Source: Gammaproteobacteria bacterium (GTDB taxonomy: Bacteria > Pseudomonadota > Gammaproteobacteria > PS1 > Pseudothioglobaceae). From it: a DNA stretch of 40,986 nt. The stretch's first letter is position 1. The number at the start of each line of letters is the position of its first letter. This document shows positions 6,193 through 40,627 of this stretch, one piece after another. The stretch is taken from the NCBI GenBank assembly GCA_016845205.1, contig JAERTA010000013.1:1-40986 (forward strand), written 5' to 3'. A program made the translations under genes and the position numbers. Under the pieces are notes generated by a model. It was not told the DNA's origin. It saw only the letters and a list, made by a program, of their open reading frames with translations, and made no database searches.

Positions 6193-9964
<3,772 letters not shown>

Positions 9965-10044: not shown

Positions 10045-10929
10045 TTACTTATTGGCCATCAACCCATCAATCATAGGTGTTAACATGATGTCCATCACGT
10101 CGACCATAAAGCTACCTTTGTATACTAGCGTATTGTCATTTTGTAAAAATGCCATCGCTTCTGCTGGCAATTGATTGGCTACCGCTTGTAAATCAACACC
10201 ATCAATGCGAACCGTGGTAACCACCAAAGAATCCTCTGGTGAAGGCACTGCTTGTCCACTAAATGGGTTAGAAGTGTCTACTAATGGAATGCGGTGAAAA
10301 TTAATGTGTGTGTTGTCAAACTGTGGGGTGATAAACTCAACATAGTCTTGCATACGATCTAGAATAATTTCTGTCACTTGTTCTGGCGTGTAAGGGCGTT
10401 CAGAAGTATCTCTGTGGATTTTTTGAATCCACTCAATATTCACTGATGGCACAACACCGACTAGCAAATCAACTTGGCCAGCAACATCAGCATTATCGGT
10501 TTTTACACCGCCGTGAAGGCCTTCGTAAAACATAATATCTGTACCAGATTCAATATCTTCCCAAGGGGTAAACTGACCCGGGTTAAGGTCAGTCCCTAGA
10601 CGAGCATTGTGTTCAACCGCCTCTTCGTCAGAGTGAATATAGTAACGCTTTTGACCTGTACCATCTTCACCATATTGTTTAAACAGTGCTTCTAGTTTAT
10701 CAAAATGGTTTGCGTCTTCTGCAAAGTGCGTCAATACTTTGCCTGCTGCACGTGATTTATCCACTTCAACCTTCATGTCTGCGCGTTCAAATTTGTGGAA
10801 GCTATCGCCCTCCACCACACAAACATTGAGATTTTTTTGATCAAATATTTTCTCAAATGCTTTTTTTACAAAAGTAGTACCTGCACCTGATGAACCGGTA
10901 ACTGAAACGACTGGATGTTTTGTTGACAT
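10045..10929 (-). CDS. prk: Phosphoribulokinase
   Basis: VSVTGSSGAGTTFVKKAFEKIF, VVEGDSFHKFERADM, MFYEGLHGGV, IEWIQKIHRDTSERPYTPEQVTE. Confidence 0.95.
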   Translation of the reverse strand: MSTKHPVVSVTGSSGAGTTFVKKAFEKIFDQKNLNVCVVEGDSFHKFERADMKVEVDKSRAAGKVLTHFAEDANHFDKLEALFKQYGEDGTGQKRYYIHSDEEAVEHNARLGTDLNPGQFTPWEDIESGTDIMFYEGLHGGVKTDNADVAGQVDLLVGVVPSVNIEWIQKIHRDTSERPYTPEQVTEIILDRMQDYVEFITPQFDNTHINFHRIPLVDTSNPFSGQAVPSPEDSLVVTTVRIDGVDLQAVANQLPAEAMAFLQNDNTLVYKGSFMVDVMDIMLTPMIDGLMANK

Positions 10930-19070: not shown

Positions 19071-19156
19071 GCCGATGTGGCGGAATTGGTAGACGCGCTA
19101 CCTTGAGGGGGTAGTGAGCTACGCTCGTGCCAGTTCGACTCTGGCCATCGGCACCA
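19071..19156 (+). tRNA. leuU: tRNA-Leu (anticodon GAG), CCA encoded
   Basis: Acceptor GCCGATG/CATCGGC, anticodon stem CTACC-TTGAGGG-GGTAG, long variable arm, T arm GCCAG-TTCGACT-CTGGC, 3' ACCA; directly downstream of secG. Confidence 0.96.
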
Positions 19157-19223: not shown

Positions 19224-19790
19224 ATGAAGTTTTTACCTGTTTTATTAATATTGTCCTCAAGTACAGCTAGTGCATTTTGGGGTGGAAGTAACACTAATTG
19301 GATGCCATTTGGTACGGGCACCGGATACAACAATCAATCACCTTGGAGCAACAATTCTAATTGGAATCCTTTTGGTACTGGTGGAAACTGGAGCCCTAGA
19401 AACGATGCGGCTAATTTAAGTCGTTATGGTGCACGTCCTAAAACGCTTATAAAATATCGGAAAGACCCAAGGTTTCAAGTCAGTAACACCATTCCTGAAA
19501 TTCATAATAGAATAAGACCTTCTAATTGGTTAACAGAAACTGACTTTGCCTCCACCATAAAAGACACGGGCGATCAGGACAAAGCCTTTGTTGTTGACGA
19601 TTTTGCAGCTTTTGGTTTGTCAGAAGGTTATGCGCGTGCCAAGGCAGAAACGTTTGGTGTTGGTAGAGTATTGAGAGACCACGCTTCACAACACACAAAT
19701 GATATTTTTGGTGATAGGGGTGCTATTTATGGCAAGCAAGGCTATGCACTTTCACCCGCCGCTTCATCAACACAAAAAATAGACAATTAA
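19224..19790 (+). CDS. Secreted NW(M/N)PFG-motif protein, sulfur-globule-like
   Basis: Signal peptide with ASA|FWGG cleavage-like site, then NTNWMPFGTGTGYNNQSPWSNNSNWNPFGTGGNWSPR; GAGAAG RBS; TATAAT at 19187-19192. Confidence 0.7.
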   Translation: MKFLPVLLILSSSTASAFWGGSNTNWMPFGTGTGYNNQSPWSNNSNWNPFGTGGNWSPRNDAANLSRYGARPKTLIKYRKDPRFQVSNTIPEIHNRIRPSNWLTETDFASTIKDTGDQDKAFVVDDFAAFGLSEGYARAKAETFGVGRVLRDHASQHTNDIFGDRGAIYGKQGYALSPAASSTQKIDN

Positions 19791-19815
19791 ACTAACAACT
19801 TAAAAACATGACGGT

Positions 19816-19843
19816 AAAAACCAGCCTTTGCGCTGGTTTTTTA
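19816..19843 (+). terminator. Intrinsic terminator
   Basis: AAAACCAGC-ctttgc-GCTGGTTTTTT. Confidence 0.85.
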
Positions 19844-20166
19844 TTGCCCTAAACAAAAAAAACCAATTTAATTGTTATGGCTTTTCGAAAAACAATATCT
19901 TTTTAAAGGGGAGATTCATTTTTTATAAAATTTTTTAAATGACACCCTATAGTTGGATCTTTTTTAACCAAAACACCCATTAATAGACCTTTAAGACCTT
20001 TAAATTGAAGTGTTTTCACCTGGAGTTTAGCTGCTTTTGATCATTTTTCAGCTATTTTTTAGGTCGTTTTCATTATTTTCAATATTTTTAAATTTTAATA
20101 AAGTCATTAATATCAATGGTTTTAAGGGTTGCTGTGAATATTTTGCAAATTAATATTAGAATATAA

Positions 20167-20194
20167 TTGACTTCTAATATAGTTAATGTATAAT
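20167..20194 (+). promoter_or_regulatory. Sigma70-like promoter for the repeat-protein gene
   Basis: TTGACT - 16 bp - TATAAT. Confidence 0.75.
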
Positions 20195-20285
20195 GCACAC
20201 CTATCAAGACGGCTCAAGTCTGATACTTAAAACCTCTCAATAATGAGTGTGTTAAATTTAAAAATAATTAATCTAGGAGATTAAC

Positions 20286-20801
20286 ATGAAAAAAATTATC
20301 GCTATCGCTACTTTAGTAGCTGCTACATCAGCTTCTGCTGGTTTTTTTGGTAACAACAACGACTCTAACTGGGGTCCATTCAACGGTTCTAACAACTGGG
20401 GTCCTTTCGATTCAGGTTCTAACTTTGGTCCAATGAACGGTGGTTCTAACTGGGGTCCTTTCTCTGGTGGTAACAACATGGGTCCATTCAACGGTGGTTC
20501 TAACGCTGGTCCTTTCAACGGTGCTTCTAACTGGGGTCCATTCAAGGGTGGTAACAACTGGTTAAACAACACTGATTTCGGTCTTAAGTTTGACACTAAG
20601 AACACAACTGACACTAACGCTTCTGGCGCTGCTGACGGTTCTGCTAAAGGTGTTGCTGACGCTAACGCTAAAGGTGTAGCAGACGCTTACGCTAAAGGTC
20701 AAGCAGATGCATTCGCTAAGGCACAAGCTGACGCTTACGCTAAAGGTTATGCAGATGCTAAAGCTGCAGGTACTGCAACTTCAACTGAAGTAGCTAAGTA
20801 A
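20286..20801 (+). CDS. Secreted two-repeat protein, sulfur-globule-like
   Basis: Signal peptide MKKIIAIATLVAATSASA; seven 9-aa NGGSNWGPF-type units (aa 24-86) then six 8-aa GVADAYAK-type units (aa 114-161); AGGAG-type RBS. Confidence 0.85.
   Translation: MKKIIAIATLVAATSASAGFFGNNNDSNWGPFNGSNNWGPFDSGSNFGPMNGGSNWGPFSGGNNMGPFNGGSNAGPFNGASNWGPFKGGNNWLNNTDFGLKFDTKNTTDTNASGAADGSAKGVADANAKGVADAYAKGQADAFAKAQADAYAKGYADAKAAGTATSTEVAK
20355..20543 (+). repeat. In-frame 27-bp repeat array, 7 units (9 aa: N-G-x-S-N-W-G-P-F)
   Basis: NNDSNWGPF NGSNNWGPF DSGSNFGPM NGGSNWGPF SGGNNMGPF NGGSNAGPF NGASNWGPF. Confidence 0.93.
20625..20768 (+). repeat. In-frame 24-bp repeat array, 6 units (8 aa: G-x-A-D-A-x-A-K)
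   Basis: GAADGSAK GVADANAK GVADAYAK GQADAFAK AQADAYAK GYADAKAA. Confidence 0.92.
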
Positions 20802-20870
20802 TTGATTACTTAACCTCGCTAGCATTATTTAGTGGGCTAAGCCTGGCTTAGATCATTAAAAAGCAAAGCT

Positions 20871-20899
20871 AAAAAGCCACTCTTCGGAGTGGCTTTTTT
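20871..20899 (+). terminator. Strong intrinsic terminator after repeat-protein gene
   Basis: AAAAAGCCACTC-TTCG-GAGTGGCTTTTTT, with a UUCG tetraloop. Confidence 0.95.
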
Positions 20900-20955
20900 A
20901 TACACAAACAACATAATATGTATCTTGGGGACATATACTTATACAAGGAAATATT

Positions 20956-21216
20956 ATGAAAACATTAATAACAATTGCTACATTGGTAGCTGCTACATCA
21001 GCTTTGGCTGATTTTCATCCAAACACATACGACTGGAATAACGACATGGTTGCACCAACTGTAGAGTCTACTGCAACGCCAGCCGCTTTAGTTGTTATGC
21101 AACAGCCACAAACAAGAATGGCTTATACTCAAGACAACGGTATCTTTGGATACAACCCATACAACATTATGGATCCTCGTTGGATGCTAGAAGAGATGAG
21201 CAATGTTATCGACTAA
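20956..21216 (+). CDS. Small secreted protein with the same leader as the repeat protein; N-P-Y-N-I-M-D-P-R-W-M C-terminus
   Basis: MKTLITIATLVAATSALA leader nearly identical to MKKIIAIATLVAATSASA; AAGGAAAT upstream of ATG. Confidence 0.75.
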   Translation: MKTLITIATLVAATSALADFHPNTYDWNNDMVAPTVESTATPAALVVMQQPQTRMAYTQDNGIFGYNPYNIMDPRWMLEEMSNVID

Positions 21217-21284
21217 ATAAATATTGTGTTGATTTTGAGGCCGTATTACTTGCGGCCTTTATATTATTATTTACTGGAGGTTGT

Positions 21285-21563
21285 ATGAACGCTTTAATTT
21301 CAAAAATAACCAGTATGTCTTTCGCATTGATATTGTGGCCAGGGCTTATGTCTATAACGATGAACGTAACAGCAGCAGACCGTATTATAATGAATATTGA
21401 TTCAGATACGTTGTCAGGTACGTTTGTATGTGAAAATGTTGAGCAATGCCACCAAAAAGTAAGGCATATGGAAGCGCGCGGTGCTGATCAATATTGTAAT
21501 GAAATTACGATTAAGAAAAATGGCGATGTTGTTTGGCATCATGATTATTGGGAATCCTTATAA
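21285..21563 (+). CDS. Small putative secreted protein, unknown function
   Basis: ATG at 21285 preceded by CTGGAGG; hydrophobic leader ending NVTAADR; three Cys (CENVEQC, YC). ORF-track start at 21180 is less likely. Confidence 0.6.
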   Translation: MNALISKITSMSFALILWPGLMSITMNVTAADRIIMNIDSDTLSGTFVCENVEQCHQKVRHMEARGADQYCNEITIKKNGDVVWHHDYWESL

Positions 21564-21580
21564 AAGGATTTTCCCAAAAA

Positions 21581-21604
21581 AAAGGCGCTTTCGCGCCTTT
21601 TTTA
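21581..21604. terminator. Bidirectional terminator between the small secreted gene (+) and tsf (-)
   Basis: AAAGGCGC-TTTC-GCGCCTTTTTT with A-run on the left. Confidence 0.9.
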
Positions 21605-40168: not shown

Positions 40169-40627
40169 ATGAATAAACCCTATAAAAGCATTATTGGACT
40201 GGCATTATTGGCATTATTTTTATCTGGCTGTGCGACACAGGCAGATAAGTCATATCCTTATCTTACCGAGCATACTGAAGCACTTAAAGATGGAAGGTAT
40301 GTTGATCCACGTACTGGTGTTGATTCTGCTGGTAGGCTGCCAAATGATCCTTATTATGGAGGTGATTCTGATTATGGGACAGCTGGTGGATCAGGCCCTA
40401 GTTACGCCACCTATAATAGTTATTTTAACCAGGGTAAAAGCTCACGAGACGGCGTTGATATAGGGATAAATCCATCACCTTTTGCTGGTAAATATACCCC
40501 TGATACTGGCACTTATGTCCCTTTGTATTTGGACAATTATAATGGGCCAGGTGATTCTACTGCGGATATGCGCGGTTTGGGTGTAGGCAAGCAAAGAGAT
40601 GAATTGATTCAACAAGAGCTTTATTAG
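40169..40627 (+). CDS. Putative lipoprotein, Gly/Tyr/Asp-rich
   Basis: Lipobox LFLSGC; mature region rich in YYGGDSDYGTAGGSGPSYATYNSYFNQG. Confidence 0.75.
   Translation: MNKPYKSIIGLALLALFLSGCATQADKSYPYLTEHTEALKDGRYVDPRTGVDSAGRLPNDPYYGGDSDYGTAGGSGPSYATYNSYFNQGKSSRDGVDIGINPSPFAGKYTPDTGTYVPLYLDNYNGPGDSTADMRGLGVGKQRDELIQQELY

Follow-up and report, generated by a model that had tools for sequence, protein, structure and literature searches.

Two families of exported proteins that accompany dsrA in SUP05-type sulfur oxidisers and recur in viral contigs: candidate coat proteins of sulfur globules

Introduction

The coat proteins of sulfur globules are well known only in purple sulfur bacteria. The proteins SgpA, SgpB, SgpC and SgpD of Allochromatium vinosum (PMC10386293, PMC3368242) are small, Sec-exported and repetitive, with regularly spaced prolines, and occur as several partly redundant copies in an rDsr organism. 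The proteins described here resemble them in these respects, their export by Sec being predicted. The comparison is one of description and not of sequence, the repeat unit here being NWGPF-N/G as against the Pro spacing reported for SgpD; and localisation to the globule has been shown for the A. vinosum proteins, whereas for those described here it is predicted.

Nearer at hand is the SUP05 clade, for which globules have been described as a trait (PMC9123188) and which makes them in the periplasm and expresses putative Sgp proteins (PMC6509183). In 'Ca. Thioglobus autotrophicus' EF1, periplasmic sulfur globules were seen by cryo-tomography, and four putative sgp genes and, by proteomics, three Sgp proteins were reported (PMC6509183). 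These genes come from the same clade as the host considered below. The available text of that report makes no mention of viral copies. Phages of SUP05 are known to carry auxiliary metabolic genes for sulfur oxidation, namely dsrA, dsrC, soxYZ, soxC and soxD (PMC8190135, PMC4164917), and neighbours encoding TusA, NifU and IscA are listed as well (PMC8190135).

I will refer to the 40,986-nucleotide stretch of DNA analysed in this study as the window. It makes up contig C13 in a genome of 1.24 Mb that is 97% complete and whose close named relatives are genomes of SUP05, Thioglobus and thiotrophic symbionts. The genome carries aprA and a full-length dsrA, and the window holds a phosphoribulokinase-like gene (10045-10929, judged by eye). 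The host is a SUP05-type sulfur oxidiser. An earlier note, made from the sequence of the window, singled out a cluster of four genes as a set of small secreted low-complexity proteins, possibly forming or coating sulfur globules.

Results

Layout of the Locus

The four genes are real and lie, as the note had them, in order on the + strand after a tRNA-Leu gene (Table 1). The N-termini of all four resemble Sec signals, and the leaders of ORF1, ORF2 and ORF3 have cleavage sites of the A-x-A type (signal peptides were judged by eye, not by a predictor). The start listed for ORF4, a TTG at 21180, runs into ORF3; the ATG at 21285, which gives a protein with a leader, is the likely start.

The genes look like separate transcription units, to judge from the terminator-like hairpins that follow ORF2, ORF3 and ORF4 and from the promoter-like site before ORF2. 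That site is suggestive only, as the number of promoter-like sites in the region equals chance expectation. The promoter candidate belongs to a stretch upstream of ORF2 that recurs before a paralogue on contig C67, where the region upstream of one ORF2-family copy resembles that of ORF2 itself over about 300 bases (by eye). Elsewhere in the window (40169-40627), a gene encodes an exported protein that resembles a lipoprotein and has a high content of Gly, Tyr and Pro.

Table 1. Features of the cluster and its surroundings, in window coordinates.
Feature	Position	Strand	Length or basis	Description
tRNA-Leu(gag)	19071-19156	+	ARAGORN	Upstream edge of cluster
ORF1	19224-19790	+	188 aa	Exported; N-terminal NWxPF-G repeats; NWLTETDF motif; conserved C-terminus IYGKQGYxLSPAASST; distant relative of ORF2
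Promoter candidate, ORF2	20167-20194	+	11/12	Sigma-70-like, TTGACT-16-TATAAT
ORF2	20286-20801	+	171 aa	Exported; about eight SNWGPFxGG-type decapeptide units; NNWLNNTDFGLKFDTKN core; Ala/Lys/Asp/Tyr C-terminal repeats
Hairpin 3' of ORF2	20871-20898	listed on -		Terminator-like; stem symmetric, with T after it on the + strand too
ORF3	20956-21216	+	86 aa	Short exported protein of NPYxxxDPRWxxEEM family; without the repeat tail of its relatives
Hairpin 3' of ORF3	21237-21259	+		Terminator-like
ORF4	21285-21563	+	92 aa from ATG	Small exported protein; three conserved Cys; phage-type family
Hairpin 3' of ORF4	21578-21603	+		Terminator-like

The ORF1/ORF2 Family

The NWxPF motifs that the note saw in two of the proteins are common to ORF1 and ORF2 well beyond chance. 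ORF2 contains seven NxGP[FMW] units, compared to a mean of 0.04 (maximum 2) in 5000 shuffled sequences, and ORF1 contains three NWxP units, compared to 0.005 in shuffles. The two proteins align by BLASTP over 154 residues (E = 5e-11), a non-repeat motif, NWLxxTDF, included, and by this comparison they are distant relatives belonging to one family. The mature ORF2 protein is small, repetitive and rich in aromatic residues, Pro and Gly (18% Gly, 15% Asn, 13% aromatic), as is characteristic of Sgp proteins, and the same holds for ORF1 in its first third. It is to ORF2 and this third of ORF1 that the description of low complexity applies; ORF3 and ORF4 do not share it. The AlphaFold2 model of ORF2 has no confident fold (mean pLDDT 46).

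The host genome contains five paralogues of ORF2 (42-89% identical), four of them on C67 and one on C114. All the ORF2-type proteins of the host have in common a leader, decapeptide units of the NWGPF type and a core NNWxNxTxFGxxFxTxN, and all but the most distant copy end in an Ala-rich tail of the ADAYAKG type. The four genes on C67 (12992-16052) stand in tandem on the same strand, among them the most distant copy, with an altered C-terminal domain. On C114, some 2.5 kb separate the paralogue from the gene pair for flavocytochrome c sulfide dehydrogenase. The codons of ORF2 are strikingly uniform (AAC for 23 of 23 Asn, GGT for 27 of 28 Gly), and the bias exceeds that of all other window genes checked, those for ribosomal proteins included, a pattern that suggests very high expression.

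When 85,462 named genomes were scanned, 48 loci of the ORF2 family came to light. The records bear the names Thioglobus, SUP05, Ruthia, Vesicomyosocius, Ruthturnera, Thiodubiliella or Bathymodiolus symbiont; the others are metagenome bins with no useful genus name. No convincing match appeared outside the Thioglobaceae among 369 sampled Gammaproteobacteria. By these searches the family is found only in Thioglobaceae (SUP05 and the symbionts of vent mussels and clams) and in viruses, and it is retained in the reduced genomes of clam symbionts. Relatives of ORF1 that are full-length or nearly so occur in about 16 Thioglobaceae genomes (a tally of 40 of 83 takes in matches to the leader only), and in many cases a gene of the ORF2 family lies at a distance of about 1 kb (L014, L039, G062, G063, G068, G073).

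The ORF3 Family

ORF3 shares with ORF2 an identical string in the leader, IATLVAATSA, as the note had seen, and is otherwise a member of a second family, with the common motif NPYxxxDPRWxxEEMxNxxD. The Sgp-like repetitive composition is found in its relatives and is absent from ORF3 itself, which appears to be a shortened member that has lost the repeat tail. Another ORF3-family copy in the host adjoins the cbb3 oxidase genes on C39, and two more relatives, together with a WPIWTPMFWMEK-type protein of a kind present in genomes with dsrA, form a three-gene cluster after metH on C85. The exported proteins of this cluster (C85, 9699-11137) are of the WPIWTPMFWMEK, DPRW and TPDWFSEEM types, and like clusters are seen in other Thioglobaceae (L078, L087, L081).

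Of 365 genomes sampled outside the Thioglobaceae, 18 contain a match that extends beyond the leader. These distant relatives read DPRYWMEEM or WTPMYWMEEM, and many carry long Gly/Tyr/Pro repeat tails. Classical Sgp proteins have Gly/Tyr/Pro repeat tails like these, a resemblance that serves as a lead only. The tails also agree with the repetitive, Pro-spaced Sgp proteins of purple sulfur bacteria (PMC10386293). Plasmid records queried with one distant relative gave no match.

Scans of Pfam, NCBIfam and PHROGs with ORF1, ORF2, ORF3 and their viral relatives returned no meaningful family. Matches to FliH, TolA and the prion octapeptide are weak and look like artefacts of composition.

Co-occurrence with dsrA

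Among 83 genomes of Thioglobaceae, the ORF2 family and dsrA (counting three genomes with split or fragmentary dsrA genes) occur together in 47 and are jointly missing from 30, with three discordant genomes in each direction. For the ORF3 family the corresponding numbers are 47 and 31, with five discordant. One of the exceptions, G015, lacks dsrA and has its ORF2-family gene on a contig of 4,455 bp, which may be contamination. Most of the double absences of the ORF2 family and dsrA fall in a single dsrA-less genus of 29 genomes, and few independent events therefore lie behind the link within Thioglobaceae. The ORF3 family extends it: outside the Thioglobaceae, dsrA is present in 16 of the 18 genomes with the family, drawn from nine families, as compared to 114 of 365 overall (Fisher p = 3e-7, a generous value, since genomes of one family are not independent).

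Both families, then, occur in sulfur-oxidising organisms with rDsr, as Sgp proteins do. The co-occurrence with dsr genes that the note had proposed to look for holds for the ORF2 family inside the Thioglobaceae and for the ORF3 family across other gammaproteobacterial families too. The note had held that homologues lying mainly in organisms without sulfur oxidation would count against it; both families follow dsrA, an outcome in its favour.

ORF4

ORF4 stands apart. Its relatives are sparse in hosts (10 of 83 Thioglobaceae genomes, several weak) and occur in 29 viral contigs, with three conserved Cys. In nine viral contigs an ORF4-type gene accompanies a member of the ORF3 family, as a rule no more than about 1.3 kb away, with TusA between the two in four. 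One viral relative matches phrog_19180, a family of unknown function. AlphaFold2 predicts a beta-beta-alpha-beta-beta arrangement (for the greater part of residues 31-90, pLDDT is about 80-90), and a Foldseek search of the model against the PDB found nothing at E <= 0.001; the scores of phage Dmd and thioredoxin are weak and are not taken as evidence. By its distribution ORF4 appears to be a phage-type gene outside the globule set, and I infer that the copy in the window is phage-derived. The four genes accordingly do not make up one set, as the note had it: ORF1 and ORF2 form one family, ORF3 belongs to another, and ORF4 is unrelated. The reading as globule proteins retains the ORF2 and ORF3 families, which track dsrA, and is dropped for ORF4, a phage-type protein for which nothing indicates a role in globules.

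Viral Copies

The ORF2 family occurs in 11 contigs of IMG/VR, the ORF3 family in 27, and both in four. The count of 27 was taken after removal of one false match (L196), which sits inside an unrelated protein of 896 aa. No clear small ORF was seen at the match position in L141 and L142. The viral ORF2 copies are shortened (108-137 aa), but the leader and the NDTDFGFNFNTKNK core are retained in them, with two to four of the repeat units. Profiles identify PhoH, ATP-dependent DNA ligase, exonuclease and ribonucleotide reductase in these contigs, and one (G450) is T4-like by eye: the contigs carrying the coat-family genes are phages. A viral protein of the ORF2 family, the one used as a query, had no counterpart in the INPHARED phage records.

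In the tree of the ORF3 family, the viral copies fall inside a well supported clade of Thioglobaceae sequences (99/97), while their union into a single viral group is weak (67/43). The viral copies of the ORF2 family lie on one branch (SH-aLRT 89). The simplest reading of these trees is transfer of the genes from host to phage. The ORF3 family would then present what marks an auxiliary metabolic gene, a host-derived gene within a bona fide phage genome.

Sulfur genes are found close by. TusA lies about 0.6 kb or less from the coat-family gene in six viral contigs and further off in two more, and DsrC-family genes are present, two in each, in three of seven ORF2-family contigs tested, all three from one metagenome. 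Most of the contigs examined also have, near the ORF2-family gene, a gene for a porin-like exported protein of about 290 aa (L061, L063, L066, L067, L157, L163); a porin-like protein in L174 (8738-9610) has no match in Pfam or PHROGs.

Several other features of the viral contigs deserve record. Two with ORF3-family genes encode ammonium transporters (L174, 2163-3335, Pfam PF00909; L169, 8894-10057). L067 encodes a small exported c-type cytochrome with CxxCH (9180-9497), about 4 kb from the coat-family gene. In L063 an ORF3-family gene (2263-2550) directly follows a tRNA-Met gene (2156-2232), an arrangement comparable to that of the window cluster after tRNA-Leu.

Discussion

The best reading of these observations, and in my view a probable one, is that ORF1, ORF2 and ORF3 coat periplasmic sulfur globules, their predicted place in the cell. 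Each would be exported by Sec. The aromatic, Pro/Gly-rich repeats, NWGPF in ORF1 and ORF2, and the NPYxxWDPRW motif of ORF3 and its relatives would contact the hydrophobic sulfur, while the helical Ala/Lys/Asp tail of ORF2 and the acidic stretches in relatives of ORF3 may lie on the periplasmic side and give the coat its cohesion. These domain roles are offered conditionally, as the model of ORF2 gives only a C-terminal helix of low confidence. Multiple near-redundant copies would permit coat production in bulk. Two other functions were considered and set aside: metal binding through Cys, as the mature ORF1, ORF2 and ORF3 have none, and an S-layer, for which the proteins are too small.

The main competing explanation is that these proteins belong to the outer surface or a matrix and have no connection with sulfur storage, forming perhaps a protective coat around the cell, and that the phage copies alter the surface of the infected cell, perhaps against superinfection. 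Repeat-rich exported proteins are indeed common in surface layers, and the porin-like gene beside the viral ORF2-family copies would fit. Yet linkage to dsrA across ten families speaks against a surface role, as do TusA and (in three contigs) DsrC as viral neighbours and the position of one ORF2 paralogue close to flavocytochrome c sulfide dehydrogenase, and I regard it as unlikely. Less probable still is a division in which ORF3 and its relatives are the only globule proteins and the ORF1/ORF2 family is a lineage-specific periplasmic protein, for stress or osmotic conditions perhaps, that tracks dsrA by shared descent. The confinement of the ORF2 family to Thioglobaceae and viruses, and of the dsrA-less genomes almost entirely to one genus, speaks for this division; but ORF2 and ORF3 have a leader in common and adjoin both in the window and in a SUP05 scaffold (L013), and both families appear together in the four viral contigs. 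A last possibility, that selfish or decaying DNA has gathered at the tRNA and the cluster has no present function, is suggested by its position and by the phage-type ORF4 and is scarcely credible in view of the extreme codon optimisation of ORF2 and the retention of the genes across genera and in reduced symbiont genomes.

If the globule coat reading is correct, what might the viral copies do? TusA and DsrC are carriers of the relay from stored sulfur to rDsr, so the sulfur store is what a phage equipped with TusA, DsrC and a coat protein would act upon. It is quite possible, and I put it forward tentatively, that phages of SUP05 carry a sulfur-storage module, made of NWGPF and DPRW coat proteins and in part accompanied by TusA and DsrC (all three together were never seen on one single contig), by which the virus builds or taps the storage inclusion of its host. 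The shortened viral copies, some with TusA or DsrC, would probably cause the sulfur store of infected cells to be rebuilt or drawn down in the phage's favour. Such a gene set would be aimed at the storage body rather than at an enzyme step. The auxiliary genes already described (PMC8190135, PMC4164917) belong to phages of the same hosts, and DsrC-family genes are common to them and to three of the ORF2-family contigs; but as far as those sources go they encode soluble enzymes or carriers, unlike the globule-type coat proteins considered here. Globule proteins are not among the auxiliary genes (dsrA, dsrC, sox) named in the portion of the sulfur phage literature covered by a limited search, a result that does not prove novelty, and viral copies of either family are likewise not described there.

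Dark carbon fixation, both in oceans poor in oxygen and in symbioses at vents, is supported by sulfur globules. With two sequence families that follow rDsr, sulfur storage could be recognised in uncultured genomes. Their viral copies suggest that phages interfere with sulfur storage by the host, and would point to phage action on the stored sulfur itself, beyond the enzymes that burn it.
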